Shown piece after piece: positions 6,447 to 63,500 of a stretch of DNA of 64,000 bases. Under the pieces are notes generated by a model that saw nothing but the letters and a program-made list of their open reading frames with translations, ran no database searches and was not told the DNA's origin. Source of the stretch: Mytilus galloprovincialis (Eukaryota > Mollusca > Bivalvia > Mytilida > Mytilidae). A program made the position numbers and the translations under genes. Within the stretch, counting starts at the first letter, position 1. Each line of letters opens with the position of its first letter. Location: assembly GCF_965363235.1 (NCBI RefSeq), contig NC_134851.1, positions 57,338,522 through 57,402,521 on the forward strand. The letters are read 5' to 3'.

Positions 6447-6485
6447 AATAAACTCATCATAGATATAAGGACTAAATTTAGTATA

Positions 6486-6532
6486 TACGCCAGACGAACG
6501 TTTCGTCTACAAAAGACTCATCAGTGACGCTC
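6486..6532 (-). ncRNA. Hammerhead ribozyme motif, intact core
   Basis: On the minus strand: helix I GCGTCA/TGGCGT, core CTGATGA, helix II GTC...GAC, GAAA, and a minimal helix III closed by A-U and C-G with loop GTTC, then GTC at the cleavage site. Confidence 0.8.
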
Positions 6533-6850
6533 GAATCCCAAAAAATTAAAAAAGGCCTAATAAAGTACGAAGTTGAAGAGCATTGAGGACCAAAATTCCT
6601 AAAAGTTTTGCCAAATACAGCTAAGATAATCTATGCCTGAGGTAGAAAAGCCTTAGTATTTCAAAAAATTCAAAAATTTGTAAACAGTAAATTTATGAAT
6701 ATAACCATATCAATGACAATTCATGTCAGCACAAAAAGTGCTGACTACTGGGCTTGTGATACCCTCGGGGAAATAAATCTCCAGCAGCATTGGCATCGAC
6801 CCAGTGGTTGTAAATAAACTCATATTGGTAAAAGGACTAAATTTAGTATA

Positions 6851-6897
6851 TACGCCAGACGCACGTTTCGTCTACAAAAGACTCATCAGTGACGCTC
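6851..6897 (-). ncRNA. Hammerhead ribozyme motif, intact core
   Basis: The organisation is that of the motif 365 bp to the left, with helix III loop GTGC. All conserved core positions (CTGATGA, GAAA, GTC) are present. Confidence 0.8.
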
Positions 6898-7215
6898 GAA
6901 TCCAAAAAAGTTAAAAAGGCCAAATAAAGTACGAAGTTGAAGAGCATTGATGACCAAAATTCCTAAAAGTTATGCCACATACAGCTAAGGTAATCTATGT
7001 CTTAGGTAGAAAAACCTTAGTATTTCAAAAAATTTAAAAATTTGTAAACAGTAAATTTATAAATATAACCATATCAATGACAATTCATGTCAGCACAAAA
7101 TGTGCTGACTACTGGGCTTGTGATACCCTCGGGGAAATAAACCTCCATCAGCAGTGGCATCGACCCAGTGATTGTAAATAAACTCATCATAGATACAAGG
7201 ATTAAATTTAGTATA

Positions 7216-7262
7216 TACGCCAGATGCACGTTTCGTCTACAAAAGACTCATCAGTGACGCTC
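7216..7262 (-). ncRNA. Hammerhead ribozyme motif, helix III mismatch
   Basis: The core CTGATGA and GAAA are kept, but the second pair of the minimal helix III is C-A instead of C-G (GAAACGTGCATC). Activity is therefore doubtful. Confidence 0.65.
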
Positions 7263-7298
7263 GAATCCAAAAAAAGTTAAAAAGGCCAAATAAAGTAT

Positions 7299-7410
7299 GA
7301 AGACCGCTGTTTGACCTATAATGGTTTACTTTTACATATTGTGACTTGAACGGAGAGTTCAACTTGTCTCAATGGCACTCATTCGCATCTTCTTATATCT
7401 ATTTGAGCCT
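7299..7410 (+). repeat. M module, right part
   Basis: This continues the module interrupted at 6446: GAAGACCG, then tttgacctataatggttta, ending with tcttcttatatct. Together with 6262-6446 it rebuilds one M copy. Confidence 0.7.
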
Positions 7411-8464
7411 CTAACAGTCTGATAGCTTACGACTACGTCACATAGTAACCGGTGATATGATGACGTTTTTGAGGTTCCAATTGGGGATAAAAACGTCGTA
7501 TATACCCCGGCAGTTTCCTGAATATATACTGACATCTCTGTGTTGTTATCCAATCACAAACCTCGACACATTTATAATCCGTAATATATACATTTAGAGG
7601 TAGGAAAATAAGTAAGTGAGATATCTGAGAATGAGACGTCCTCTTGTATACACATATGTCTGAGGTCAATCAAGCATTTGCATCTTACATCTTGTATTTT
7701 TTCTTTGCTCTTAATCAAACTGTCATGACCTTTTCTGGTAGGTAAAGGTTGTTAAGATGTTTGATACACTGTTCATTATACTACAACGTTTCTATCAATA
7801 AATAAACTTAATCAGAAATATATAGTGCTTATGAATAATTTAAAGAAAGTAAACATCGAAACCTTTGAAATCAACAGTTCAACTATTGGACTAAGAATCA
7901 ATCAAGTTACTTTTTACAATCCATATAAAATACTACACTTTTTGGTGAAGGGCCAGCTTTTACCAGTTTAATCCACCATTTTCTACATACGAAAATGACG
8001 GTACCAAGTCCGAAATATTACAGTTGTTATCCAGTCGTTTTATTTGTTTGAGCTTTTGATTTGTCATTTTGGGTAGGGACTTTTTTTTTTTTTTTAAATT
8101 TTCCTCGGAGTTCAGTATATGTATGAAGTTCTCTAAGTACGTTTTTGTTCTTATCTGCACAGTTACAAAATGCCATACTGCCTTACAACTACATATGGAA
8201 GTTTAATGTTCACTGAAGTATTTCTATACATCAAGGATTTCCGGGCCTTTTCCCTCATTTACCTGGATTAAATCCTTCCTCGCCATGGTCGTCCTAATTT
8301 AAAGTATTGCCTTACTAAATTAATTCGTACAAATAGGACAAAATTCTAAAATAAGTGTGGTTGCTCGCAGTCTCTATCAAACAATGCTAAATAAAATACA
8401 ACTCTGATGTCATTTGTGTTCAAAGAAATTGTTGTACATCGTCTAATGAAAAAAGAACTTAAAT
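7411..8464. other. Interval with little recognisable content
   Basis: AT-rich sequence. Around 8070-8120 there is a minus-strand fragment of the dispersed repeat found at 9964 and 11715 (phrase ttttcctcggagttcag). Nothing else is recognised. Confidence 0.5.
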
Positions 8465-8646
8465 ACGGATTTTTTGTGTTATTAAATTTGCTGTTACAAA
8501 ATGTTATAAATTATCATAAATTAAGGAATGTATCTCCCTCAAGCAAAGCTCTGATTCCTTTTACGGATTTGGCCATACTTTTTGGAACTTTTGGATTATA
8601 GCTCTTCATCTTTTATATAAATTTGGATTTTACATATTTTGGCCAC

Positions 8647-8693
8647 GAGCATCACTGAAGAGACATGTATTGTCAAAATGCGCATCTGGTGCA
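8647..8693 (+). ncRNA. Hammerhead ribozyme motif, core mutated
   Basis: The layout matches the motif at 8995, but the conserved GAAA after helix II reads AAAA (tgtcaaaatgcgc). The G is essential in hammerheads, so this copy is probably inactive. Confidence 0.65.
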
Positions 8694-8994
8694 GAAAAAT
8701 TGGTACCGTTAATGTTATTACTACCACTGGGTCGATGCCTCTGCTGGTGGACTGATAGTCCCCGAGGGTATCACCAGCCCAGTAGCCATACTCCGGTACT
8801 GGCATGAAAATACGGATATTTTGTGTTATTAGATTTGCTGTTACAAAATGTTATAAATTATCATAAATTAAGGAATGTATCTCCCTCAAGCAAAGCTCTG
8901 ATTCCTTTCACGGATTTGGCCATACTTTTTGGAACTTTTGGATTATAGCTCTTCATCTTTTATATAAGCTTTGGATTTTACATATTTTGGCCAC

Positions 8995-9041
8995 GAGCAT
9001 CACTGAAGAGACATGTATTGTCGAAATGCGCATCTGGTGCA
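8995..9041 (+). ncRNA. Hammerhead ribozyme motif, variant subfamily
   Basis: Helix I GCATCA/TGGTGC, core CTGAAGA (position 7 is variable in hammerheads), helix II GACA/TGTC, GAAA, helix III A-U and U-A with loop GCGC, then ATC. Relative to the 15.85-kb family, both strands of each helix have changed while pairing is kept. Confidence 0.8.
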
Positions 9042-9072
9042 GAAAAATTGGTACCGTTAATGTTATTAAAAT

Positions 9073-13832: not shown

Positions 13833-16065
13833 CAGAATGAAATAAGTTATTAGCAAATGGACTATTGGATCGATAAAGTTTCCTGTCCACTACGTATGTG
13901 TAATTCTTTTATATAAGGATCGACATGGTATCAATTGCTTTTGTACATTGTAACGTTCTCATGGTTTGACATTTGTAAGGTTGCGTAGGGAGTCCAATGC
14001 TTGGTATAATTTGTCTGAAATCAAACAAGGGGGAAAAACTACAGTTTTTTTTACCAAATTTATTTGAGGAAAAATTAGTTTGACCTTGTTGATGTCATTG
14101 GAATCGTCCTTCTGCCATACTTTACCACTGTTTCACACTTTCATTACAAGGCATCTGTCATTTATAAGGTAAGTGTTGTAATAATATGTTATGTACTTCA
14201 ATGAATAATTAGGTATGAGAAGATGATATATGAGTGCCAATGAGACAACTCTCCATCGAAGTCACAATTTGTAAAAGCAAACCATTATAGGTCAAATTAC
14301 GGTCGTCAACACGGAGCCTTGGCTCACACTCGAACTGCAAGCTATAAAAGGTCCCGAAAATCAAATTTGTTTAAGGTAGAATTAGTTTGACCTTGTTGGT
14401 GTCATTGGAAAAGTCCTCCTACCATACTATACCATTGTTTCACACTGTCATTACAAGACGTTTGTCATTTATTAGATGAGTGTTGTAATAGTATGTTATT
14501 GTAATGATATGTTATATACTTCAATAAATAATTAAGTATACATTTTGTAGGAAGATGTGGTATGATTGATAATGAGACAACTCTCCATCAAAGTCACATT
14601 TTGTAAAAGTTACCATTATGGGTCAAAGTTCGGTCTTCAACACGGAGCCTTGGCTCACACCCGAACAGCAAGCTATAAAAGGTCCCGAAAATGACTAGTG
14701 TAAAACATTTCAAATAGGAAAACCAACGCTATACATGTATAATTCTTTTATATTAAAATGAAAACTAGCATTAATGACAACATATCGACATGGTTTCAAT
14801 TGCTTTTGTACATTGTGTCGTTCTCTTGGTTTGACTTTTGTTAGGTTACACAGGGAGGTCAATGCTTGGTATAATTTGTCTGATATCAAACAAAAGGAAG
14901 GTGGTTCAGATCCTTTTGTTCAATCAAATTTGTTTTAGGTACAATTAGTTTGACCTTGTTGGTGTCATTGGAAAAGTCCTCTTACCATACTATACCATTT
15001 GTACATTTATAAGGTAAGTGTTGTAATAGTACGTCATTTTCATAATATGTTATATACTTCAATGAATAATCAAATATAGGAAGATGTGGTATGATTGCAA
15101 CGAGACAACTCTCCATCCAAGTCACAATTTTAAACGATCAATAGCTGTAGGTCAAAGTGGGTCTTTAACACGAAGCCTTGGCTCACATCAAACAGCAAGC
15201 TAAATGGGCCCCCAAAATGATTAGTGTTAAACAATTCAAACAATAGTGAACTATAACAACATAGAATACACAACAAAATATCAATTGAATTACCTATAGC
15301 TTTACTCAATCAAAAGACACATTAACAAAGTCTATAAAGAAGTGATAGATGGTTTGACTGACTTGCATCTGACCAGTATTTGCACTTACTCCTGAATTCT
15401 TCTTGCTTTAATCAAATGTCAATTTTACAGCTCAAAACATCAAACAAATGGTCAGCCACTGTCATATTCCTAACTTGTAAAGAAGTGTCAAAGTAATAGT
15501 ATTTTCTGAATTTGATCAATATAGTTATCTGTCCACTATACATGTATAATTCTTTTATATTAAAATGAAAACTAGCATTAATGACAACATATCGACATGG
15601 TTTCAATTGCTTTTGTACACTGTGTCGTTCTCTTGATGTGACTATTGTACGGGTACTCAGGGAGGTATAATTTGTCTGATATCAAACAAAAGGAAAGTTG
15701 TTCAGATCCTTTTTTTTTTTAATCAATTAATTTTTAGGTACAATTAGTTTGACCTTGTTGGTGTCATTGGAAAAGTCCTCCTACCATACTATACCATTGT
15801 TTCACACTGTCATTACAAGACATCAGTCATTTATAAGGTAAGTGTTGTACCCAGTAGTCAGCACTTTAGTGTTGACATGAATATCAATTATGTGGTGATT
15901 TTTATAAATTTCCTGTTTACAAAGCTTTGAATTTATTGAAAAACTAAGGATTTTCTTATCCCAGGAATAGATTACCTTAGCCGTATTTGGCACAACTTTT
16001 TGGAATTTTGGACCCTCAATGCTCTTCAACTTCGTACTTATTTGGCTTTATAAATATTGTGATAT

Positions 16066-16112
16066 GAGCGTCACTGATGAGTCTTATGTAGACGAAACGC
16101 GCGTCTGTCGTA
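16066..16112 (+). ncRNA. Hammerhead ribozyme motif, helix I mismatch
   Basis: The core CTGATGA, helix II GTC...GAC, GAAA and GTC are all present. Helix I has one U-U mismatch because the 3' strand reads TGTCGT instead of TGGCGT. Confidence 0.75.
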
Positions 16113-16419
16113 CTTAATTATAATCCTGGTAACTTTGATAGCTATTTATACCACTGGGTCGATGCCACTGCTGGTGGACGTTTCGTCCCCGAGGGTATCA
16201 CCAGCCCAGTAGTCAACACTTTGTGTTGACATGAATATCCATTATGTGGGGATTTTTATAAATTTCCTGTTTACAAAACTTTGAATTTATTGAAAAACTA
16301 AGGATTTTCTTATCCCAGGAATAGATTACCTTAGCCGTATTTGGCACAACTTTTTGGAATTTTGAACCCTCAATACTCTTCAACTTCGTACTTATTTGGC
16401 TTTATAAATATTTTGATAT

Positions 16420-16466
16420 AAGCGTCACTGATGAGTCTTATGTAGACGAAACGCGCGTCTGGCGTA
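16420..16466 (+). ncRNA. Hammerhead ribozyme motif, intact
   Basis: Helix I GCGTCA/TGGCGT, CTGATGA, helix II GTCT/AGAC with loop TATGT, GAAA, and helix III A-U, C-G with loop GCGC. Cleavage is predicted after the C of GTC at 16459. Confidence 0.85.
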
Positions 16467-16773
16467 CTAAAGTATAATCCTGGTAACTTTGATAACTATT
16501 TATACCACTGGGTCGATGCCACTGCTGGTGGACGTTTGGTCCCCGAGGGTATCACCAACCCAGTAGTCAGCACTTTACTGTTGACATGAATATCAATTAT
16601 GTGGTGATTTTTATAAATTTCCTGTTTACAAACTTTGAATTTATTGAAAAACTAAGGATTTTATTATCCCAGGAAGAGATTACCTTAGCCGTATTTGGCA
16701 CAACTTTTTGGAATTTTGGACCCTCAATGCTCTTGAACTTCGTACTTATTTGGCTTTATAAATATTTTGATAT

Positions 16774-16820
16774 GAGCGTCACTGATGAGTCTTATGTATA
16801 CGAAACGCACGTCTGGCGTA
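16774..16820 (+). ncRNA. Hammerhead ribozyme motif, weakened helix II
   Basis: The core is kept, but helix II ends TAC instead of GAC, leaving a C-U mismatch in a three-pair stem. The helix III loop is GCAC. Confidence 0.7.
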
Positions 16821-17128
16821 CTAAATTATAATCCTGGTAACTTTGATAACTATTTATACCACTGGGTCGATGTCACTACTGGTGGACGTTTCGTCCCCGA
16901 GGGTATCACCAGCCCAGTAGTCAGCACTTTTGTGTTGACATGAATATCAATTATGTGGAGATTTTTATAAATTTCCTGTTTACAAAACTTTGAATTTATT
17001 GAAAAACTAAGGATTTTCTTATCCCAGGAATAGATTACCTTAGCCGTATTTGGCACAACTTTTTGGAATTTTGAACCCTCAATACTCTTCAACTTCGTAC
17101 TTATTTGGCTTTATAAATATTTTGATAT

Positions 17129-17175
17129 GAGCGTCACTGCTAAGTCTTATGTAGACAAAACGCGCGTCTGGCGTA
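17129..17175 (+). ncRNA. Hammerhead ribozyme relic, core destroyed
   Basis: The conserved CTGATGA reads CTGCTAA and GAAA reads AAAA. This unit cannot be an active hammerhead, although spacing and flanks match its neighbours. Confidence 0.75.
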
Positions 17176-17483
17176 CTAAATTATAATCTTGGTAACTTTG
17201 ATAACTATTTTTACCACTGGGTCGATGCCACTGCTGGTGGACATTTCGTCCCCGAGGGTATCACCAGCCCAGTAGTCAGCATTTTAGTGTTGACATGAAT
17301 ATCAATTATGTAGTGATTTTTATAAATTTCCTGTTTACAAAACTTTGAATTTATTGAAAAACTAAGGATTTTCTTATCCCAGGAATAGATTACCTTAGCC
17401 GTATTTGGCACAACGTTTTAGAATTTTGGACCCTCAATACTCTTCAACTTCGTACTTATTTGGCTTTATAAATATTTTGATAT

Positions 17484-17530
17484 GAGCGTCACTGATGAGT
17501 CTTATGTAGACGAAACGCGCGTCTGGCGTA
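17484..17530 (+). ncRNA. Hammerhead ribozyme motif, intact
   Basis: All core positions and the three helices are as in the copy at 16420. Predicted cleavage is after position 17523. Confidence 0.85.
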
Positions 17531-17836
17531 CTAAAGTATAATCCTGGTAACTTCTATAACTATTTATACGACTGGGTCGATGCAACTGCTGGTGGACGTT
17601 TCGTCCCCGAGGGTATCACCAACCCAGTAGTCAGCACTTTACTGTTGACATGAATATCAATTATGTGGTGATTTTTATAAATTTCCTGTTTACAAACTTG
17701 AATTTATTGAAAAACTAAGGATTTTATTATCCCAGGAATAGATTACCTTAGCCGTATTCGGCACAACTTTTTGGAATTTTGGACCCTCAATGCTCTTCAA
17801 CTTCGTACTTATTTGGCTTTATAAATATTTTGATAT

Positions 17837-17883
17837 GAGCGTCACTGATGAGTCTTATGTAGACGAAACGCGCGTCTGGCGTA
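17837..17883 (+). ncRNA. Hammerhead ribozyme motif, intact
   Basis: Core and helices complete; predicted cleavage after 17876, giving 353 nt from the previous site. Confidence 0.85.
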
Positions 17884-18191
17884 CTAAAGTATAATCCTGG
17901 TAACTTTTATAACTATTTATACGACTGGGTCGATGCAACTGCTGGTGGACGTTTCGTCTCCGAGGGTATCACCAACCCAGTAGTCAGCACTTTACTGTTG
18001 ACATGAATATCAATTATGTGGTGATTTTTATAAATTTCCTGTTTACAAAACTTTGAATTTATTGAAAAACTAAGGATTTTCTTATCCCAGGAAGAGATTA
18101 CCTTAGTCGTATTTGGCACAACTTTTTGGAATTTTGGACCCTCAATGCTCTTCAACTTCGTACTTATTTGGCTTTATAAATATTTTGATAT

Positions 18192-18238
18192 GAGCGTCAC
18201 TGATGAGTCTTATGTAGACGAAACGCACGTCTGGCGTA
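18192..18238 (+). ncRNA. Hammerhead ribozyme motif, intact core
   Basis: The core is complete and helix III has loop GCAC (ACGCACGTC). Predicted cleavage is after 18231. Confidence 0.82.
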
Positions 18239-18270
18239 CAAAATTATAATCCTGGTAACTTTGATAACTA

Positions 18271-20100
18271 TTGTAATAGTACGTTATTGTAATAGTATGT
18301 TATATACGTCAATGAATAATGAAATACTGGAAGATGTGGTATGATTGCAACGAGGCAACTCTCCATTCAAGTCGCAATTTTAAAAGATCAATAACTGTAG
18401 GTCAAAGTACGGTCTTTAACACGAAGCCTTGGCTCACACCAAACAGCAAGCTAAATGGGCCCCCAAAAATGATTAGTGTAAAACAATTCAAACAGGAAAA
18501 TCAACGGTCGAATCTATGTTAAAGATGTACTTAGGTGAGGTTTTGGAATTCATGTCAAATTTTCGGAGTCCTTGGGGTTTTTCCATTCAAAGCAAGGTGA
18601 AATATTTTGCCCCATAACACCCATTTATTTGTTCAAATAAGTTTAAATAGCCCATGAAATGTCATTTACCAAAACTTTAGAAGATTCTTAATTTTCTTTC
18701 CTTTATTTTGAAACCCAAATAATACCAATGCAAATATAAAGTAAAAGTCTGAGTCAGCCTTTTCCCGCCATATTTTAAATCTCATATATCTCGCAAAGGA
18801 GGTCCATGACCTATCAATATTTTTAGGTTATTCTTATCCCTAACGAATGCTCTACCAGCTTCAAGTAGCAATTTCATATTCTTAATTTCTTAATTTCTTA
18901 ATTTTCACCTAGCCTCACCTAAGTTCATCCTTAAAGAAGAGAAACACACATGAAACACATCAACAAAAGACATCTACTGAACATGCTGACTTGGGACAGG
19001 GGCAATCAAATGTGCAGCGGGTTGAATTATTTGAATAAATACCAACTTTCAACCTTACCTGAATCAATAGTGAACTATAACAACATAGAAATACACACAA
19101 TTAAATATCAATTGAATTACCTATAGCTTTACTCAATCAAAAGACACATTAACACAGTTTATAAAGAAGTGATAGATGGTTTGACTTACTTCCATCTGAC
19201 CAGTATTTGCACTTACTCCTGAATTCTTCTTGCTTTGATCAAATGTCAATTTTACAGCTCAAAAAGATCAAACAAATTGTCCGCAACAGTCATATTCCTA
19301 ACTTGTAACAAAAGTGTCAAAGTAATAGTATTTTCTGAATTTGATCAATATAGTTATCTGTCCATTATACATGTGTAATTCTTTTATATTAAAATGAAAA
19401 CTAGCATTAATGACAACATATCGACATGGTTTCAATTGCTTTTGTACACTGTGTCGTTCTCTTGATTTGACTTTTGTTAGGGTACTCAGGGAGGTATAAT
19501 TTGTCTGATATCAAACAAAAGGAAAGTAGTTCAGACTCTTTTTTTTCAATCAAATGTTTTTTAGGTACAATTAGTTTGACCCTGTTGATGTTATAGGAAA
19601 AGTCCTCCTACCATACTATACCATTGTTTCACACTGTCATTACAAGACGTTTGTCATTTATTAGGTGAGTGTTGTAATAGTATGTTATTGTAATGATATG
19701 TCATATACTTCAATAAATAATTAAGTATACATTTTGTAGGAAGATGTGGTATGATTGATAATGAGACAACTCTCCATCAAAGTCACATTTTGTAAAAGTT
19801 ACCATTATGGGTCAAAGTTCGGTCTTCAACACGGAGCCTTGGCTCACACCCGAACAGCAAGCTATAAAAGGTCCCGAAAATGACTAGTGTAAAACATTTC
19901 AAACAGGAAAACCAACGCTATACATGTGTAATTCTTTTATATTAAAATAAAAACTAGCATTTATGACATCATATCGACATGGTTTCAATTGCTTTTGTAC
20001 ATTGTGTCGTTCTCTTGGTTTGACTTTTGTTAGGTTACACAGGGAGGTCAATGCTTGGTATAATTTGTCTGATATCAAACAAAAGGAAGGTGGTTCAGAT
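18271..20100 (+). repeat. Segmental duplication, copy 1 (about 1.83 kb)
   Basis: This stretch is nearly identical to 22793-24623 at a constant offset of 4522-4523 bp, including the embedded MITE and two E modules. The last retrozyme unit before it also shares the variant ccttagtcgta in both places, so the duplication probably began inside the arrays. Confidence 0.8.
18523..18930 (+). mobile_element. TTAA-flanked MITE, copy 2 (408 bp)
   Basis: It is flanked by TTAA (18519-18522, 18931-18934). The ends agatgtacttaggtgagg and cctcacctaagttcatcc are inverted repeats with two mismatches over 18 bp. The empty site survives in a sister M module at 20485-20500 (ctatattaaagaagagaaac), which shows the insertion boundaries. 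Non-coding. Confidence 0.85.
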
Positions 20101-22004
20101 CCTTTTTTATCTTCAATCAAATTTGTTTTAGGTATAATTAGTTTGACCTTGTTGGTGTCATTGGAAAAGTCCTCTTACCATACTATACCATTGTTTCACA
20201 CTGTCATTACAAGACATCAGTCATTTATAAGGTAAGTGTTGTAATAGTACGTTATTTTCATAATATGTTATATACTTAACAAATAATCAAATATAGGAAG
20301 ATGTGGTATTATTGCAACGAGAAAACTCTCCATCCAAGTCACAATTTTAAAAGATCAATTACTGTAGGTCAAAGTACGGTCTTTAACACGAAGCCTTGGC
20401 TCGCACCAAACAGCAAGCTAAATTGCCCCCAAAATGATTAGTGTTAAACAATTCAAACAGGAAAACCAACGGTCGAATCTATATTAAAGAAGAGAAACAC
20501 ACATGAAACATATCAACAAAAGACAACTACTGAACATGCTGACTTGGGACAGAGGCAATCAAATGCAGTGGGTTGAATCATTTTAATAAATACCAACTTT
20601 TAACCTTACCTGAAGCAATAGTGAACTATAACAACATAGAAATACACACAATAAAATATCAATTGAATTACCTATAGCTTTACTTAATCAAAAGACACAT
20701 TAACACAGTCTATAAAGAAGTTATAGATGGCTTGACTGACTTGCATCTGACCAGTATTTGCACTTACTCCTGAATTCTTCTTGCTTTGATCAAATGTCAA
20801 TTTTACAGCCCAAAAACATCAAACAATTGGTCAGCAACTGTCATATTCCTAATTTGTTAAGAAGTGTCAAAGTAATAGTATTTTCTGAATTTGATCAATA
20901 TAGTTATCTGTCCATTATACATGTGTAATTCTTTTATATTAAAATGAAAACTAGCATTAATGACAACATATCGACATGGTTTCAATTGCTTTTGTACACT
21001 CTGTCGTTCTCTTGATTTGACTTTTGTAAGGGTACTCAGGGAGGTATAATTTGTCTGATATCAAACAAAAGGAAAGTAGTTCAGATTCTTTTTTTTTAAT
21101 CAATTAATTTTTAGGTACAATTAGTTTGACCTTGTTGATGTCATTGGAAAAGTCCTCCTACCATACTATACCATTGTTTCACACTGTCATTACAAGACGT
21201 TTGTCATTTATTAGGTGAGTGTTGTATTAGTATATTATTGTAATGATTTGTTATATACTTCAATAAACAATTAAGTATACATTTTGTAGGAAGATGTGGT
21301 ATGATTGATAATGAGACAACTCTCCATCAAAGTCACATTTTGTAAAAGTTACCATTATGGGTCAAAGTTCGGTCTTCAACACGGAGTCTTGGCTCACATC
21401 CGAACAGCAAGCTATAAAAGGTCCCGAAAATGACTAGTGTAAAACATTTCAAACAGGAAAACCAACTATACATGTGTAATTCTTTTATATTAAAATGAAA
21501 ACTAGCATTTATAACAACTTATCGACATGGTTTCAATTGCTATTGTACATTGTGTCGTTCTCTTGGTTTGACTTTTGTAAGGTTACACAGGGAGGTAAAT
21601 GCTTGGTATAATTTGTCTGATATCAAACAAAAGGAAAGTAGTTCAGATCCTTTTTTTTCAATCAAATTTGTTTTAGGTACAATTAGTTTGACCTTGTTGG
21701 TGTCATTGGAAAAGTCCTCTTACCATACTATACCATTGTTTCACACTGTCATTACAAGACATCAGTCATTTATAAGGTGAGTGTTGTACCCAGTAGTCAG
21801 CACTTTAGTTTTGACATGAATATCAATTATGTGGTGATTTTTATAAATTTCCTGTTTACAAAGCTTTGAATTTATTGAAAAACTAAGGATTTTCTTATCC
21901 CAGGAATAGATTACCTTAGCCGTATTTGGCACAACTTTTTGGAATTTTGGACCCTCAATGCTCTTCAACTTCGTACTTATTTGGCTTTATAAATATTGTG
22001 ATAT

Positions 22005-22051
22005 GAGCGTCACTGATGAGTCTTATGTAGACGAAACGCGCGTCTGGCGTA
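22005..22051 (+). ncRNA. Hammerhead ribozyme motif, intact
   Basis: Helix I, CTGATGA, helix II, GAAA and GTC are all complete; predicted cleavage after 22044. Confidence 0.85.
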
Positions 22052-22358
22052 CTAAATTATAATCCTGGTAACTTTGATAACTATTTATACCACTGGGTAG
22101 ATGCCACTGCTGGTGGACGTTTCGTCCCCGAGGGTATCACCAACCCAGTAGTCAGCACTTTAGTGTTGACATGAATATCAATTATGTGGTGATTCTTATA
22201 AATTTCCTGTTTACAAACTTTGAATTTATTGAAAAACTAAGGATTTCATTATCCCAGGAATAGATTACCTTAGCCGTATTTGGCTCAACTTTTTGGAATT
22301 TTGGACCCTCAATGCTCTTCAACTTCGTACTTATTTTGCTTTATAAATATTTTGATAT

Positions 22359-22405
22359 GAGCGTCACTGATGAGTCTTATGTAGACGAAACGCGCGTCTG
22401 GCGTA
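22359..22405 (+). ncRNA. Hammerhead ribozyme motif, intact
   Basis: Identical core and helices to the copy at 22005; predicted cleavage after 22398. Confidence 0.85.
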
Positions 22406-22713
22406 CTAAATTATAATCCTGGTAACTTTGATAACTATTTATACCACTGGGTCGATGTCACTGCTGGTGGACGTTTCGTTCCCGAGGGTATCACCAGCCC
22501 AGTAGTCAGCACTTTAGTGTTGACATGAATATCAATTATGTGGTGATTTTTATAAATTTCCTGTTTACAAAACTTTGAATTTATTGAAAAACTAAGGATT
22601 TTCTTATCCCAGGAATAGATTACCTTAGTCGTATTTGGCACAACTTTTTGGAATTTTGGACCCTCAATGCTCTTCAACTTCGTACTTATTTGGCTTTATA
22701 AATATTTTGATAT

Positions 22714-22760
22714 GAGCGTCACTGATGAGTCTTATGTAGACGAAACGCGCGTCTGGCGTA
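22714..22760 (+). ncRNA. Hammerhead ribozyme motif, intact
   Basis: Identical core and helices to the copy at 22005; predicted cleavage after 22753. Confidence 0.85.
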
Positions 22761-22792
22761 CTAAATTATAATCCTGGTAACTTTGATAACTA

Positions 22793-24623
22793 TTGTAATA
22801 GTACGTTATTGTAATAGTATGTTATATACGTCAATGAATAATGAAATACCGAAAGATGTGGTATGATTGCAACGAGGCAACTCTCCATTCAAGTCGCAAT
22901 TTTAAAAGATCAATAACTGTAGGTCAAAGTACGGTCTTTAACATGAAGCCTTGGCTCACACCATAACAGCAAGCTAAATGGGCCCCCAAAAATGATTAGT
23001 GTAAAACAATTGAAACAGGAAAATCAACGGTCGAATCTATGTTAAAGATGTACTTAGGTGAGGTTTTGGAATTCATGTCAAATTTTCGGAGTCCTTGGGG
23101 TTTTTCCATTCAAAGCAAGGTGAAATATTTTGCCCCATAACACCCATTTATTTGTTCAAATAAGTTTAAATAGCTCATGAAATGTCATTTACCAAAACTT
23201 TAGAAGATTCTTAATTTTCTTTCCTTTATTTTGAAACCCAAATAATACCAATGCAAATATAAAGTAAAAGTCTGAGTCAGCCTTTTCCCGCCATATTTTA
23301 AATCTCATATATCTCGCAAAGGAGGTCCATGACCTATCAATATTTTTAGGTTATTCTTATCCCTAACGAATGCTCTACCAGCTTCAAGTAGCAATTTCAT
23401 ATTCTTAATTTCTTAATTTCTTAATTTTCACCTAGCCTCACCTAAGTTCATCCTTAAAGAAGAGAAACACACATGAAACACATCAACAAAAGACATCTAC
23501 TGAACATGCTGACTTGGGACAGGGGCAATCAAATGTGCAGCGGGTTGAATTATTTGAATAAATACCAACTTTCAACCTTACCTGAATCAATAGTGAACTA
23601 TAACAACATAGAAATACACACAATTAAATATCAATTGAATTACCTATAGCTTTACTCAATCAAAAGACACATTAACACAGTTTATAAAGAAGTGATAGAT
23701 GGTTTGACTTACTTCCATCTGACCAGTATTTGCACTTACTCCTGAATTCTTCTTGCTTTGATCAAATGTCAATTTTACAGCTCAAAAAGATCAAACAAAT
23801 TGTCCGCAACAGTCATATTCCTAACTTGTAACAAAAGTGTCAAAGTAATAGTATTTTCTGACTTTGATCAATATAGTTATCTGTCCATTATACATGTGTA
23901 ATTCTTTTATATTAAAATGAAAACTAGCATTAATGACAACATATCGACATGGTTTCAATTGCTTTTGTACACTGTGTCGTTCTCTTGATTTGACTTTTGT
24001 TAGGGTACTCAGGGAGGTATAATTTGTCGGATATCAAACAAAAGGAAAGTAGTTCAGATTCTTTTTTTTCAATCAAATGTTTTTTAGGTACAATTAGTTT
24101 GACCCTGTTGATGTTATAGGAAAAGTCCTCCTACCATACTATACCATTGTTTCACACTGTCATTACAAGACGTTTGTCATTTATTAGGTGAGTGTTGTAA
24201 TAGTATGTTATTGTAATGATATGTCATATACTTCAATAAATAATTAAGTATACATTTTGTAGGAAGATGTGGTATGATTGATAATGAGACAACTCTCCAT
24301 CAAAGTCACATTTTGTAAAAGTTACCATTATGGGTCAAAGTTCGGTCTTCAACACGGAGCCTTGGCTCACACCCGAACAGCAAGCTATAAAAGGTCCCGA
24401 AAATGACTAGTGTAAAACATTTCAAACAGGAAAACCAACGCTATACATGTGTAATTCTTTTATATTAAAATAAAAACTAGCATTAATGACATCATATCGA
24501 CATGGTTTCAATTGCTTTTGTACATTGTGTCGTTCTCTTGGTTTGACTTTTGTTAGGTTACACAGGGAGGTCAATGCTTGGTATAATTTGTCTGATATCA
24601 AACAAAAGGAAGGTGGTTCAGAT
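22793..24623 (+). repeat. Segmental duplication, copy 2
   Basis: Partner of 18271-20100. After about 24623 the copies part: this one reads gatccttttgttcaatc where the other has a longer T tract and an extra atc. Confidence 0.8.
23046..23453 (+). mobile_element. TTAA-flanked MITE, copy 3 (408 bp)
   Basis: Same length and TTAA flanks (23042-23045, 23454-23457) as copy 2. It is part of the segmental duplication rather than an independent insertion. Confidence 0.85.
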
Positions 24624-50170: not shown

Positions 50171-51811
50171 CAGTTTATTAGTCTTTCATTCAATGTTGCA
50201 GTAATGAAGATAGTTGATATTCGAATACAACATTTTAAAGAACATTTTACCCTCAACAAAAACTATAAAAACCCTATTTCGCGTATCAAAAATAAACTAA
50301 CAGAACTAGCCAAGGAATTTGTTTTTGTCCCGGCTGATAAAGCTGCTAATAATATCATTATTGTTTGACGTAAATTTTATATAGAGGTTCTGCAAAAGGA
50401 AATCACGAATTCACCAACATTCCAACTGACTTCATTTTCAGAAAACGACATCTGTAACAAACATAAACTTTTAGCTACTTCTTTACAAGCAGAACCAAAC
50501 ACAATGAAAGTCCCAACTATGTACTGGCTTCCGAAGCTGCACAAAAAACCTTACAAATATAGATTTATTTCATCTTCCAACCATTGTTCAACTACTAAAT
50601 TGTCTGTTTTACTTACTAGTACACTTGGTACAATTAAAAACCTGATAATAAATTGTTCAAATAAGGCCTTTGAAAATAGTGGAATTAATTACTTTTGGAG
50701 TGTCAAAAACTCGTTGGAAGTTCTTGATAAATTGCATGCATATATTGGTGATTTTAGATCTGTTCAAAGTTTTGATTTTTCTACCCTATATACCACTTTG
50801 CCTCATATTCTTATTAAGAAAAAATTCACATCCCTAACCAACTGGGCATTTAAAAAGTCGGAATGCGAGTACATATGTTCAAACTCTTTTAGATCATTTT
50901 TTAGTAGCAATAAACAAAAGAACTATGTCAATTGGACATGCTTTGATACTATTTATGCACTTGAATTTTTACTTGATAACATTTTTGTTCGCTTTGGAGA
51001 TTCCGTATATCGTCAAGTTATTGGAATTCCAATGGGGACTAACTGTGCACCACTTATTGCGGACCTGTTTTTGTATTGTTATGAGTTACAATTTATGACT
51101 AAAATTAGCAAAGACCCATCAAAACAACATTTGATACAAAAATTTAACAATACTTTTAGATATTTGGATGATATATTGGCTCTAAATAATGACGACTTCA
51201 GTATGTATACTAAAGAAATTTATCCTGTAGAACTTACTTTAAATAAAGCTAATGATAACAATGACCACTGCCCTTTCCTCGATCTTGATATCTATATCAT
51301 AAACGGGAAGCTTAATACAAAAATTTATGATAAAAGAGATGATTTTTCATTTCCTATTGTTAATTATCCATTTTTAGATGGTGACGTTCCCTTGTCACCA
51401 TCTTATGGTGTTTATATATCTCAACTTGTACGATTCGCTCGTGTATGTAACAATGTATTAGATTTTAGCGAGAGAAATTTATGTATTACTGAAAAATTAT
51501 TACACCAGGGTTTTCGATATCACAAACTGGTCAAAACATTTACTAAATTTTATCACCGGTATAAGGAAATAATTCGTAAATATAACTCAACATGCAGACA
51601 TCTTATACGTTCAGGTATTTCACATCCAAAATTTTATGGAAATATTCTTTATAAAGCACAAAAATGTCAGTATTCTCCTCAGAAACTAACAAAACCTTTA
51701 AATAGACTTATTAAAAGGGGATATAGTTACGATACTGTTGTCAGGTCATTAAAGATTGCATATTTTGGCTTTAACATTGATTCACTGATAGGGTCTTTGC
51801 ATCGGAACTAA
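50171..51811 (+). pseudogene. Penelope-like reverse transcriptase with one in-frame stop
   Basis: The frame is open from 50171, with a possible ATG at 50204. It is interrupted by a single TGA at 50366-50368, then open again to 51811; the longest piece, from ATG 50504, has 435 residues. Upstream of the stop the frame gives AKEFVFVPADKAANNIIIV, an RT entry block. In the 435-residue piece: YWLPKLHKKPYKYRFI (7-22), motif A QSFDFSTLYTTLP (88-100), motif B GIPMGTNCAPLIADLF (174-189), motif C RYLDDIL (219-225) with the two catalytic Asp, and a later FPFLDGDVPLSPSYG-like block. These fit Penelope-like RTs better than LINE RTs, but the clade is not resolved. The single stop suggests a recently inactivated copy. 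Confidence 0.8.
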
Positions 51812-52440
51812 ACACATTTATTTCTAAAAAAACAGTTGTTGGCATGACACGGGTTATGTTCTTCTCATATATTTTATGATAGTATGATACTAAACCCCTA
51901 ACGGGAGGGATTGTACCTGATATTCATATGATGAAGACATAATCTTTCAATCAGTTTAATTGAGGTCTGGAGCTGGCATGTCAGTTAACTGCTAGTAGTC
52001 TGTTGTTATTTATGTATTATTGTCATTTTATTTATTTTCTTTTGTTACATCTTTTGACATCAGACTCGGACTTCTCTTGAACTGAATTTTAATGTGCGTA
52101 TTGTTATTCTTTTACTTTTCTACATTGGCTAGAGGTATAGGGGGAGGGTTGAGATCTCATAAACATGTTTAACCCCGCCGCAATTTTGCGCCTGTCCCAA
52201 GTCAGGAGCCTCTGGCCTTTGTTAGTCTTGTATGATTTTAAATTTTAGTTTCTTGTGTATAATTCGGAGTTTAGTATGACGTCCATTATCACTGTACTAT
52301 TATGCATATTTTAGGGGCCAGCTGAAGGACACCTACGGGTGCGGGAATTCTCGCTACATTGAAGACCCATTGGTTGCCTTCGGCTGTTGTTTGCTCTATG
52401 GTCGGGTGGTTGTCGCTTTGACATATTCACCATTTCCTTT
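50171..52440 (+). mobile_element. Penelope-like retroelement, 5'-incomplete
   Basis: This consists of a reverse transcriptase reading frame (50171-51811) followed by a non-coding 3' region of about 630 bp containing gaggtctggagctggcatgt, cgcctgtcccaagtcaggag and ctacattgaagacccattgg, which I recognise as a tail repeated in bivalve genomes. No GIY-YIG endonuclease and no hammerhead motif was found next to it. The same tail, without RT, is inverted at 45755-46110. It lies in sense orientation inside the putative ankyrin-gene intron. Confidence 0.75.
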
Positions 52441-58030: not shown

Positions 58031-58385
58031 TACAATAAACCTGTCATTTAACCAGTTATACAGACACGTATGTACTCAGTTTTAATTTCCTTTTAAAGAG
58101 ATAAGTGACACAAGAATACATCCGATTTGAATTTTTTATCATTATGTCTGCATCTTTCGAAAATTCCTACTTTCGAACTTCGAGAAATCTGGGTCATTTG
58201 ATATCGAAGGAACTATATTTTTTCTCGATTTAACAGAATATTCAAACCAACCGAGTTCGAGTCATCAGAGGTTATTATACATCGATCAAACGGGAACTTA
58301 CCGCTACTGAGAAATTACTGCGACTCATCTAAGTTTTCGACACAAAGAAGTTCGACTGTATTTCATGAATGTTCAAGACGATGAA
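58031..58385. other. Flank of DIRS-like element
   Basis: Positions 58300-58375 are the inverse of 53325-53400. Nothing else is recognised. Confidence 0.5.
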
Positions 58386-58638
58386 TTAACTGTTTACAAA
58401 ACTTTTGATTTTTTTAAAATACTTACTTAAAGGACTTTCTACCACAGAACTATATCATCTTAGCTGTATTTGGCAAAACTTTCATGAATTGTGGTACTCA
58501 ATGCTATTCAACTTCGTACTTTATTTGGCCTTTAATTGTTTTATGATTTGAGCGTCACTGATGAGTTTTTTTGTAGACGAAACGCGCGTCTGGCTTAAAG
58601 TACCATAATATAATCCTGGTATCTATGACGAGTTTATT
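58386..58638 (+). mobile_element. Single 5'-truncated retrozyme-like monomer
   Basis: It starts within the unit at tgtttacaaaacttttgatt, includes attcaacttcgtactttatt and a hammerhead motif, and ends gacgagtttatt. This is the same 3' end as the 6.4-kb copy. The body is diverged from the 354-bp units. Confidence 0.7.
58550..58597 (+). ncRNA. Hammerhead ribozyme motif, single copy
   Basis: CTGATGA, GAAA and GCGTC are intact. Helix II (GTT...GAC) needs a U-G pair, and helix I is shorter (TGGCTT against GCGTCA has a mismatch at the fifth pair). Confidence 0.7.
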
Positions 58639-58639
58639 T

Positions 58640-60589
58640 TCATGCATTGCATACATTTACCAAAAATAAGTCATTTGTCGGACATTTGCATTTGTTGTTG
58701 ACATGTACCCGCGAAACCTAAGAAAATTGGTATCCAACGAAAATTTAAGAATTCAGCGAAGATTAATCTCGAGAAAGATGTGTATTTCGGAAGAATGTTG
58801 TTCCCAGTTTTGTTGCGCAATTCTAGTATAGTGTTAACTTGCGATAAAAATATTAATGGTATCCTAAAACTTTATTAGAAAAAAAAATGTTTTGAATAAA
58901 TACATAATAAAATTCTTAGAATAAATTAAAATAGTTCACTGCAAGTTGTTATTATTACTGTGACATTGATGAATAAAAATCTACAAGACTATTTAATTCC
59001 ATTAGGTATATTGTTTATGACAGGAACATTAAAGTTCTTTGACTCCTCAAGAATGAGTAACACACTTTAATTATTGTAGATGAAGTAAGACACACATTGA
59101 TTTTTTCCAATAAAGTGTTTATATATTGCTATTGAAGAATTTTTGTTTACTTATTTCTGGACATAAATGACATTCTTACAAAATGTTAACGAATACACAA
59201 ATGATAATAAGGGTACTTATACTTATACTAAACCTATATACACTAACACACCACTGATGGGGATATCCTATGAAATTACACACAACTTATGGGGAAGCTG
59301 TATGAATAAACACACAACTGATGGCGAAGCTCTATTAATTAACTCCTGAATTTTCTCATTGACCTAAACTCGGTGTTGTGTTAGTTTTATTCACACGTAA
59401 ACTAAACACAATTACGTTCCCATTGATAGAACTCAATGTTAACATGAAGTTAAAATCATGTTTTGTCTACATGCAGTCGATAATCAATGTAGAACTTGTG
59501 TGGTTCAGTGTTCACAAAAGAAGGTACAAATGTATTTAGAACATGCATTTTACCATGCATATTTAAAGAAGAAACATTTTTTGAATAAAATTAGTATTTA
59601 TAACAATTATTTAATATAAAATGTAGGTTTTTTTTATCGAATTATTTGTCTAAACTTGATTATTTGGTTTGTTACATAAAAAACGGACCGACCATTTAAC
59701 TACATGCGTTGAGGGGTTATGGTTTTATGTTCGACACAGACTAATTTTTTTTCGCAAATAGCAATAACAATTTTATTTGGTTTGCCAAAGCTATCAATCA
59801 AATTTTTGTTAAAAATTTAACACTCAAAGGTATGGGGAAAATCTGGATTCAGAAATATGCTTTTCCCTCATTAAAGAGAATATTTTTTCATTAATTTTAG
59901 AATCAGAATATGGGTTTATTGAGAAAAAAAACACATTTTTTTAGTTGAATTTTCATTCCTTTAACCCCTTATCCAGACTCAAGGCATCATCAATGCCAAA
60001 CGCATCACTCATTTGAAAATGTCTTCCCGAATTGACTGCACGTACACAGAAATATTTACCACTGGTCTTGACTCAATCAACGATTCATTCATAAATGCAT
60101 TACTAAAACACCTTAAACATCTCAATCCTTCTTCTTTGTTTGTAGCCTACGTGATTTATTGTGTAATAAGTGGTGGATTCAGATGGGGTCGGGTTCAGGG
60201 GGTTGGAACCCCCTTTTTTCGGACGATCAATGTCTGGAACCCCATGCATTTTGAAAATGCCTTCATCCGTCTCTGGTGATCAAGACTGCTTAAGTACCTT
60301 CAAAGTAGTTGTAAATCACCAAAATGACTGTCATCACGGCTAGAAAAGTTGTCCAAGAAATTTATTTCGATTCAATGTAATGAGCATTTAAATGACATAT
60401 AGTTTATAAGTGTGATCAAAACTTATGCATAGGGGACTAAACGAGGTGTAAAGATATAAACAAATTTAACGTGGAACCAGTGCAATGCAGTGTACATTAC
60501 ATTAAACTAATTGTAAACATGTTTACTGTACATGGCGTTTGATGTGAGCACGGCCTTACATTACATTGGCCAGTTTATAACACACGTTT
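58640..60589. other. Interval with sparse minisatellite-like text
   Basis: Mostly unrecognised. Positions 59230-59345 contain three phrases like cacaccactgatgg that foreshadow the array beginning at 60.6 kb. An ORF at 60013-60279 runs through a dispersed phrase (gtggtggattcagatggggt) and is not believed. Confidence 0.5.
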
Positions 60590-63500
60590 ATAATGTGTGT
60601 TACCATCAGTGGTGTTGATCTTTGAATTATACGTCAGTGATGATGACGCTTCAAATGCGCATACCAGTCATGATGACTTATTAAATACATACACAACTGA
60701 CGGTCATTCCATGGTCATTTGCATACCACTGATGATGATGACATGGTTAGTTTTCAAACCTTCGATAGACACATTATTAATGATGACCTGGTAAATAAAC
60801 ACACCATATATGGTGACATTATGAATTGAAAACCAATGATGGTGACACCTAAACGTCAGGCATCATTGTTGATTTAATCCAAAATTTAAATACCACTAAT
60901 AGGAACAACCTTCATTTTGCTCCAAATGTGGCACCCGTCGTGTTGCTTATATGATAACAAATCCGGTAAATAGTCTCATTCGGTAGGCCACATTCATAAA
61001 AGGGAAAGAAATTGTAGTTACGACGTAAGTAACATATCCGATATCATTTATGAAACGGTTATTCCATAACGGTCAACCACAAAATTGTACAATTTATAAT
61101 TTTACAACATTAACATTTTAACACAATGAATAAATCATTTATATTAATAAACAAAGTTGTCCAATTTAGGACACAAGTTTGTATGTCTGTGCTGCCAACA
61201 GTGGACACCTTTATATAGTTCTTTATCCCCTTAATCCACCGCATCACTGATAGCGACACCCCTAAAAAATTCACACACCACTGATTAAACTGTTCCAAAT
61301 TACAGTCCAATGATGGTTACAACCTCAATTAAAACATCACTGATGGTGACCTATAATAATCAGACACCTTAGATAATCCGGATCCAATAATTCACATACC
61401 AATCGTATCAACATGATCAAGGGTGACACCATAAAATCGCAAAGTAACTATGACGACGTCCTCAATTCATGCACTTATGATGGTGACAACCTTAAATCAT
61501 AATGATGACTCCCTAAATACAAATAAATGTGATGATGACATGGTAAATTTACAATCACTGATGGTCACATCATGATGATGACACGGTAAATGTGCAAACC
61601 ATTTATGGACACATCATTGATGATGTCATGGTAAACCACTGATTTATGCTGATAGGGTAAAATTGTAAAACATTGATAGGCACAACATGGATGATGATAG
61701 GGCAATTCGAAAACCGCTTGAGGGCAAATCATTGATTATGACGTAATAAATTCGCAAACCACTGAAGAGTACGCCATTGAAGATGACATTGTACATTCGC
61801 AAACCACTTACATTGATCGGTCACATGATTCATGATGGCATGGTAAATTTGCAAACGTCGTACTAAACTATAATCCTGGTACCATTGATAACTATTTACA
61901 TTGATCGATTACATCATTCATGATGACATGGTGCTTCTGCAAACCACTGGTGGTCACATCATTGATAGTGGTACGGTAAATTCGCACACCACTGATGGTT
62001 ACATCATTGGTGGTCACATGGTGAATTGCAAACCGCTGATTTTCAATTAAAACATCACCCATGAGACCAGCCTATATTCGCAAATCACAAAGATGACGCC
62101 CTAAATTCATGCACTAGTGATGACAACATTTTGAATATTAACACTACTATTGATGACTAATTGAATCAAACCTCAGATGATACATTAAATATACACTATA
62201 CTAATGTTGGTGTCATTGATTCATTCAACTGGAGAGTCTAACCCTAAAATAACACACCACTGATGGTAACGCACGGAATCCGATCATCATGTTTTAATGT
62301 TCAGTAAAAATGTTCCTTTTAAAATTGTTACACGATGATGACTGCTGTACCCATATTTAAAGAACCATAACATCCTCAATTTTCACCTTCTTATGGCGAC
62401 ATCCTTAGACCACGATTCATTGATAATGACGCCCTAAATTTACACGCTAGTGTGATGGTTTCATCATAAACTCACACACCACTGATGTAAATCATTTTTT
62501 ACACACCACTGAAACTCTTTAAATTTAAAAATTACTGATGGTGACAAGCTTTAAATTTACATACCACTAATGTTGAAACCCTTTAAATTCACATACCACT
62601 AATGATAAAACCCTTTAAATTCACATAACACTAATGGTGAAACCCTTCAACTTCACTAATTAGAATACCCGTTAAATTCACACACTTATGATGATGAAAC
62701 CATAAATTCACAAGCCACTGAAAATCACACCCTAAATTTATAAACCGCTGATGGTGAAACTCTTTAAATATACACATCACTGTTGGTGGAATCCTTTAAA
62801 TTCATCTACTTGCAATGGTGACACCTGAAATTCATACGCGAATGATAGTGTAACCCTTAATATTTACACACCACTGATAATGAAAGTCTTTAAATTCATA
62901 CACCACTGATGGTAAAACCCTTAAAATTTACATATTACAAATATTGACACGCTTTATATTCACACACTACTGATGCTGAAACCCTTAAAATAACCATACC
63001 ACTGTTAGTGAAACCCTTTTAATTTATATATTACTGACGGTGACACGCTTTTAATTCACATACCATTGATGATGAAGACCTTCAACTTCTCACACCATTA
63101 ATTATAATATCCGTTTAAATTCACATACTTAATGATTATGAAACCATAAATTTACATAACACTGATGATGACACCCTAAATTCACACACCAATTATGTTA
63201 CACCCAGAATTTACACACCACTAATGGACACACCATAAATTCACCTATCACTGATTGTGAAACCATAAATTTACACACCACTGATGGTAAAACCATTTAT
63301 TTACACTCACCACTGCTGGTGAAACCCTTATTTCTCGCACCACTGATAGGTAGCCCTATAAATCCACAAATCACTTAAGGTCAAACCCTTTTAATTCAAA
63401 CTCCAATGATGATAACATCTTAAACTAAGACAACAATGAAAATGAAAATCTGATAAAAACACAATACTGGATAGTGACATTTAATATTTAAACAGCTTAG

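Follow-up and report, generated by a model that had tools for sequence, protein, structure and literature searches.

Structure of the array and its insertion site

We analysed a stretch of 64,000 nucleotides from the mussel Mytilus galloprovincialis (assembly GCF_965363235.1, contig NC_134851.1, positions 57,338,522 to 57,402,521, on C14 in our numbering of contigs; hereafter the window), in which a tandem repeat with a unit of about 354 bp carries a hammerhead ribozyme motif in six of its seven units. A first-pass annotation, made from the sequence alone, had placed this repeat at 15850..18271, and Tandem Repeats Finder (TRF) recovers it at 15849-18272 with a period of 355, 6.8 copies and 95% matches. 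The seven ribozyme-like motifs that the annotation had spaced at 353-355 bp were likewise located, and their start positions are given in Table 1. The array is flanked by a 5-bp target duplication, TTGTA, at 15845-15849 and 18271-18275, and nearby host-repeat copies at 15004, 20222 and 14466 show the corresponding empty site. GC content is 37.6% (in 16001-18000), and no stop-to-stop open reading frame (ORF) of 150 aa or more was found overlapping the arrays of the window. Its motif has tens of thousands of matches across the genome, among which the array represents a single insertion with defined ends.

Hammerhead motifs

The pattern CTGATGA-N(6-30)-GAAACG was matched 13 times in the window, six times inside the array (15850-18272), and never in 100 shuffles. 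The motif is laid out as helix I (GCGTCA/TGGCGT), CTGATGA, helix II (GTCT/AGAC) and GAAA, followed by helix III (AC/GT) with the loop GCGC and by the cleavage triplet GTC. The Rfam model of the type I hammerhead, RF00163, matches six of the seven motifs, three of them at 33.0 bits and the others at 31.7, 30.1 and 25.5 bits, with E-values between 1.2e-5 and 3.7e-3 for a search space of 3.4 kb and between 2.4e-4 and 0.07 for 64 kb. Matches were taken by E-value below the gathering score of the model, which is 34; the covariance-model check that had been proposed is therefore positive for six motifs by E-value, with every score under that threshold. The whole window holds eleven RF00163 matches and, in a minus-strand array, one weak type III match.

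The statement that every unit carries a ribozyme was worded too strongly, the motif at 17131 being dead, while the estimate of four or five complete motifs was right: those at 16422, 17486 and 17839 are perfect and others show lesser changes. The cut predicted after 17523 is correctly placed in the motif at 17486.

At least three unit families occur, of 354, 364 and about 350 bp (families A, B and C), and 16 units (12 of family A, one of family B and three of family C) were aligned (alignment A1). In this alignment 97.4% of the ribozyme cells are paired, and sliding the partner strand drops pairing to 16-48%. All three helices show compensatory changes between families; both sides are changed in 12 cells, compared with an average of 2.9 after shuffling, and none of 500 shuffles reached this number. 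Five covariation measures were computed in all, two of which were unremarkable both for the ribozyme and for the hairpin domain described below.

Genome-wide copies and insertion ends

In the 1.385-Gb genome we counted 31,180 matches to the ribozyme motif and 26,196 to the tail (the part of an insertion that follows its last cleavage site), each at up to two mismatches; reversed-pattern controls gave 0 in both cases. The same genome has seventeen matches to Myticin-prepro, a family linked to Mytilus, which indicates a Mytilus-like mussel; 14 control genomes gave 0, but these are apparently prokaryotic, so that they do not set Mytilus apart from other molluscs. Insertions were sampled at 40 loci picked by the ribozyme motif and 60 picked by a 28-nt tail pattern, which misses shorter inserts; every one of these loci lies within the initial 15 Mb of a single chromosome (C1). 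Positions were counted from the cleavage site. Read by hand, using the piece that holds the sampled motif or the last piece of the array, the 3’ end lies at 36-48 in 37 of the 40 motif-sampled loci, with a mode of 41, the exceptions being L012, L013 and L034. An automatic longest-match rule places 33 of the 40 at 36-50; L025, L035, L042 and L045, which also fail this rule, were re-read by hand. For family C the 3’ end is at 34 in three of seven matches, the remaining ones being short or truncated at the edge of the locus; L068-L070 have it at 33.

The 5’ ends are scattered. Motif-sampled copies measure 0.23 to 3.38 units, many of them below one unit, and the cleavage site lies inside the copy at 50 of 55 tail-sampled loci (all except L078, L079, L098, L105 and L111). 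This count excludes five segmental copies (L069, L070, L082, L093 and L100) and retains L113 and L114, although these have a right flank in common, and L091, despite a left junction common to L092/L093; without L091 it becomes 49 of 54. The template of the copies that cross the site was thus circular or uncleaved. Three pieces begin exactly at the cut (L020, L099 and the inverted piece of L075). A footprint of self-cleavage among the 5’ ends was considered and rejected, as the bin 1-10 holds six of the 103 listed ends versus 9, 7 and 6 in other bins, without a peak; positions 282 and 13 were also seen three times each, the latter partly set by the search pattern. L075 is a tail-to-tail inverted pair, the sole clear case in the sample. 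Tail-to-tail inverted copies are associated with Penelope-like mobilisation.

Flanks are marginally richer in A+T (70% versus 68% overall). Several have dispersed repeats in common away from the junction, and none are alike right up to it, segmental copies and pieces of retrozyme arrays excepted. Divergence within an insertion is low in many arrays, with 0 in L010, a 2.65-unit family C copy, and 0.016-0.020 in L009, L029, L042 and L077. It is higher, at 0.07-0.13, in L027, L028, L039 and L044, and L020 reaches 0.15 over 39 columns. Low values are compatible with copying from one circle or from a young multimer.

A conserved hairpin domain beside the fixed 3’ end

Conservation between families is concentrated in two islands, the ribozyme and a hairpin domain of about 85 nt directly 3’ of the insertion end. 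With gaps counted as differences, identity between families A and C is 84% for the domain, 74% for the ribozyme, 49% for the spacer and 40% for the tail, and between families B and C it is 79%, 72%, 47% and 27%, respectively; the domain is the best conserved part only when family C is compared. It has 28 consensus pairs, with 95.3% of cells paired and covariation in helices 3 and 4; 14 cells of the domain are changed on both sides against 4.1 in shuffles (0 of 500 as high). We consider the domain a putative binding site for a reverse transcriptase (RT). Neither the domain nor the combination of a fixed 3’ end with scattered 5’ ends was found in the published literature searched (open-licence papers, through titles and the starts of abstracts).

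Related copies and other features of the window

The other copies in the window are listed with the main array in Table 1. A local duplication carries the array: 15850-18741 and 21788-23264 correspond, with 99% identity between their right flanks (18442-18741 and 22965-23264). The two arrays hold 6.8 versus 2.8 units with identical ends, a difference of four units. Of the remaining motifs in the family B array, one has a weak type III match (6495-6533) and the third is unmatched in Rfam, and the first of the two motifs of the family C array (8461-9068) has a core change. In the tandem repeat around 61859-61900, a neighbouring unit shows the uninterrupted sequence.

Table 1 Retrozyme arrays, hammerhead motifs and related features, in window coordinates
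Feature	Coordinates	Strand	Evidence and remarks
Family A retrozyme array, 6.8 units of ~354 bp, single insertion with defined ends	15850..18270	+	TRF, empty sites
Type I hammerhead, unit 1, one helix I pair lost	16068..16111	+	RF00163 31.7 bits; predicted cut after 16105
Type I hammerhead, unit 2, intact	16422..16465	+	RF00163 33.0 bits; predicted cut after 16459
Type I hammerhead, unit 3, helix II pair lost, helix weakened	16776..16819	+	RF00163 25.5 bits
Hammerhead relic, unit 4, core destroyed (CTGCTAA, GACAAAA)	17131..17174	+	No RF00163 match; sequence
Type I hammerhead, unit 5, intact	17486..17529	+	RF00163 33.0 bits; predicted cut after 17523
Type I hammerhead, unit 6, intact	17839..17882	+	RF00163 33.0 bits; predicted cut after 17876
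Type I hammerhead, unit 7, differs only in loop III (GCAC)	18194..18237	+	RF00163 30.1 bits
Conserved hairpin domain, one example, repeated in every full unit	16150..16234	+	Directly 3’ of insertion end point; alignment A1 columns 1-87
Tail, last cleavage site to insertion 3’ end	18232..18272	+	41 nt by BLAST; final two bases may be target duplication
Sister array, 2.8 units, ends and host-repeat context as in main array	21788..22794	+	Perfect hammerheads at 22007, 22361, 22716
Retrozyme of family B, 2.35 units of 364 bp, with CTTCA as probable target duplication	6447..7302	-	RF00163 29.8 bits at 6852-6895
Retrozyme of family C, 1.74 units of ~350 bp, hammerhead-like motifs divergent with compensated helices	8461..9068	+	No Rfam match at E up to 1
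Single truncated family B-like copy	58381..58642	+	Hammerhead 58552-58596, RF00163 24.6 bits, E 0.15
42-bp tail-only fragment starting near cleavage site	61859..61900	+	Inside other tandem repeat

Elsewhere in the window, a MIR7994 match at 1545-1663 on the minus strand (51.4 bits, below the gathering score of 100) is probably a repeat hairpin, and a 32-bp tandem array of 28.6 copies with 65% match occupies 62510-63398.

Identity of the repeat

The array is very probably a mussel retrozyme, i.e. a metazoan non-LTR (long terminal repeat), non-autonomous retroelement of about 354 bp. Among the characters by which such elements are recognised, we find a type I hammerhead (in six of seven units), repeats of 353-355 bp, inside the range of 150-450 bp, a GC content below 45-50% and no ORF of at least 150 aa; as for a target duplication of more than 4 bp, the array has 5 bp with an empty site and 35 sampled loci give a weak excess. 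The family that the first-pass annotation left unnamed is thus the metazoan non-LTR retrozyme, and its view of the array (hammerheads, a self-cleaving tandem transcript, circles) is partly supported.

Hammerhead retrozymes of this kind have already been published in mussels. Cervera & de la Pena 2020 (PMC7229834) described M. galloprovincialis hammerhead repeats of about 350-390 bp, with cleavage in vitro (co-transcriptionally at about 0.1/min) and abundant circular RNA, their dimeric construct from this species being DRtz_Mg353. The present array resembles them in having a type I hammerhead in tandem repeats, low GC, many copies and no coding capacity, a likeness that is one of description and not of alignment to the clones MN642551-MN642576. 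Self-cleavage to monomers of about 354 nt and closure into circles, which agree with what that work reports for mussel retrozymes (PMC7229834), are probable for the array. That work gives about 5000 copies and two similar ribozyme families for M. galloprovincialis, whereas we count 31,180 motif matches and at least three unit families, and the portions of its main text compared here describe no fixed insertion end. Judged by description, the hammerhead repeats of axolotl and newt share a unit of about 330-350 bp and a type I hammerhead with a tetraloop-capped short helix III, and differ in host and in cleaving better as dimers (PMC7229834). Plant LTR retrozymes are also non-autonomous, with a hammerhead and circular RNA (PMC4918200); unlike the array, they have type III hammerheads, LTRs and circles of 600-800 nt (PMC7229834).

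Penelope-like elements as a possible source of the enzyme

Penelope-like elements have been named strong candidates for the mobilisation of animal retrozymes (PMC7229834), and in the portions of a 2020 review drawn on here, animal retrozyme repeats are described as being without a conserved motif that reveals the mobilising enzyme (PMC7761336). The Penelope-like element Poseidon of Anolis (Frangieh 2024, PMC11167929) offers the closest parallel to the insertion ends. Its enzyme starts reverse transcription inside its own RNA, downstream of the hammerhead cut, and requires RNA beyond the start, and both strands are cut and extended. Unlike the array, Poseidon encodes its own RT and endonuclease, and its hammerhead cleaves only with protein and is dispensable in vitro, mutants still inserting; counted along its ORF, the cut lies at +26 and reverse transcription begins at +111 to +118 (PMC11167929), whereas in the mussel insertions 36-48 nt separate the cut from the 3’ end. 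The 3’-end position downstream of the hammerhead (37 of 40 loci by hand, 33 of 40 automatically) resembles Penelope-like initiation in pattern only. On this pattern, and not on shared sequence, a Penelope-like element appears the likeliest source of the enzyme and is a putative partner.

The genome holds at least 147 matches to the GIY-YIG domain (150 of 1001 candidates were scored), because of which the ten GIY-YIG loci analysed are a small sample; six of them, at only about 3.2 kb, may miss element ends. Three long frames (712-910 aa) match GIY-YIG above the cut-off, the one in L060 being cut by the locus end, and RVT_1 passes its cut-off in one of the three and narrowly misses it in the other two. 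Hammerhead-like motifs were picked up by a plain pattern in L051 and L058. The L051 motif is palindromic, lying at about 2893 (+) and about 650 (-) and reading the same on both strands, in inverted copies; it adjoins the GIY-YIG element and has no Rfam match.

The window itself contains a Penelope-like RT frame at 50192-51811 (+), which matches the GIY-YIG loci in tblastn with E down to 6e-13 and has one in-frame TGA at 50366-50368. About 55 nt past its stop, at 51866-51930 (+), lies a SECIS_1 match of 30.9 bits, below the gathering score of 35. Together, these make it a candidate selenocysteine-bearing element, presumably of the clade called Naiad. First-look candidates in the genome numbered 57,382, and among the copies scored the best 89 show 99-100% identity. 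A PDB search with this RT gave nothing useful.

Alternative explanations

Could the array be a plain satellite with a chance hammerhead, spread by unequal crossing-over or DNA rolling circles without any retrotransposition? The tandem organisation would suit such an origin, as would the two duplicated arrays, which with the same ends and 6.8 versus 2.8 units have apparently gained or lost units after insertion. The sampled copies, however, are short dispersed insertions whose 5’ ends are scattered while the 3’ end stays fixed, their flanks are not alike up to the junction apart from segmental copies and pieces of retrozyme arrays, and a pre-insertion site with a 5-bp duplication is seen in the window, so that we regard a satellite as highly improbable. 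We give as little credence to a derivation of the repeat from a Penelope-like element, as a fragment or as a pseudo-LTR. Minimal type I hammerheads are known from these elements (PMC7761336, PMC11167929) and Penelope-like frames occur in the genome, but the repeat has no significant similarity to the ten sampled GIY-YIG loci and no coding capacity; since no stop-to-stop ORF of at least 150 aa overlaps the arrays, they are not Penelope-like elements themselves.

More plausible than either, and still unlikely in our view, is a retrozyme mobilised in the manner of a SINE (short interspersed nuclear element), by a long interspersed nuclear element (LINE)-type element that would recognise a linear transcript by its 3’ end. 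A fixed 3’ end, a variable 5’ end and short duplications are generally LINE-like, and the three copies that begin exactly at the cleavage site would fit as well. Against this, self-cleavage of the RNA would produce no end at the fixed position, and the cleavage site is contained within 50 of the 55 tail-sampled copies; moreover, another element bearing the same tail was not seen in the upstream flanks of 86 insertions, the LINEs of the genome not having been searched. We tentatively favour, at rather less than even confidence, a Penelope-like RT that would bind the hairpin domain of the circular RNA, start just upstream of it, 36-48 nt past the cut, and run for part of a turn or for several turns.

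A number of results weigh against the Penelope-like and retrozyme readings. No Rfam family reaches its gathering score, the motifs of the family C array have no Rfam match at E up to 1, and helix III consists of two pairs only. The lone 44-mer folds no better than shuffles (z 0.85), and the minimum-energy fold is not the hammerhead, either for the 44-mer or for a 129-nt stretch. By other measures covariation is less striking: the ribozyme has 4 pairs changed on both sides, a number equalled or exceeded in 37 of 500 shuffles, and 9 pair types (173 of 500), and for the domain the values are 5 (20 of 500) and 13 (94 of 500). The double changes of the ribozyme represent few events, because they come in threes, all from three family C copies. 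Between families A and B the ribozyme (93%) is more conserved than the domain (84%), as it is within family A (94% and 91%). Target duplications are short and weak, the longest shared stretch over 35 loci averaging 4.14 versus 3.60 in shuffles (3 of 500 shuffles as high); over the same loci, stretches of six or more are no commoner than by chance and long target duplications were not found. The confinement of the sample to part of one chromosome counts here too. Finally, the unit has no significant nucleotide similarity to the ten GIY-YIG loci or the RT element of the window (best E 0.012), and no Rfam hammerhead match was obtained in these ten loci at E up to 5.

A model for retrozyme mobilisation in mussels

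In the model we propose, read-through transcription would yield a multimeric RNA, the type I hammerheads would cut it into monomers, and a host ligase would then close these into circles, both steps being published for M. galloprovincialis or in vitro. An RT from another element, here presumed, would start 36-48 nt (mode 41) 3’ of the cleavage site, beside the hairpin domain, and copy the circle or an uncleaved multimer for a variable distance. Insertions fixed at the 3’ end and variable at the 5’ end would result, which is the pattern that we observe.

The copies that cross the cleavage site argue that circles or uncleaved multimers, and not cut linear monomers, are the usual template. The fixed end beside a covarying RNA domain provides a concrete candidate site, with which the question of the enzyme becomes testable by the published in-vitro assay for Penelope-like elements. 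If the model holds, the ribozyme would make the circle, and the domain would serve as an address label of a sort not found in the published work on animal retrozymes that we searched.

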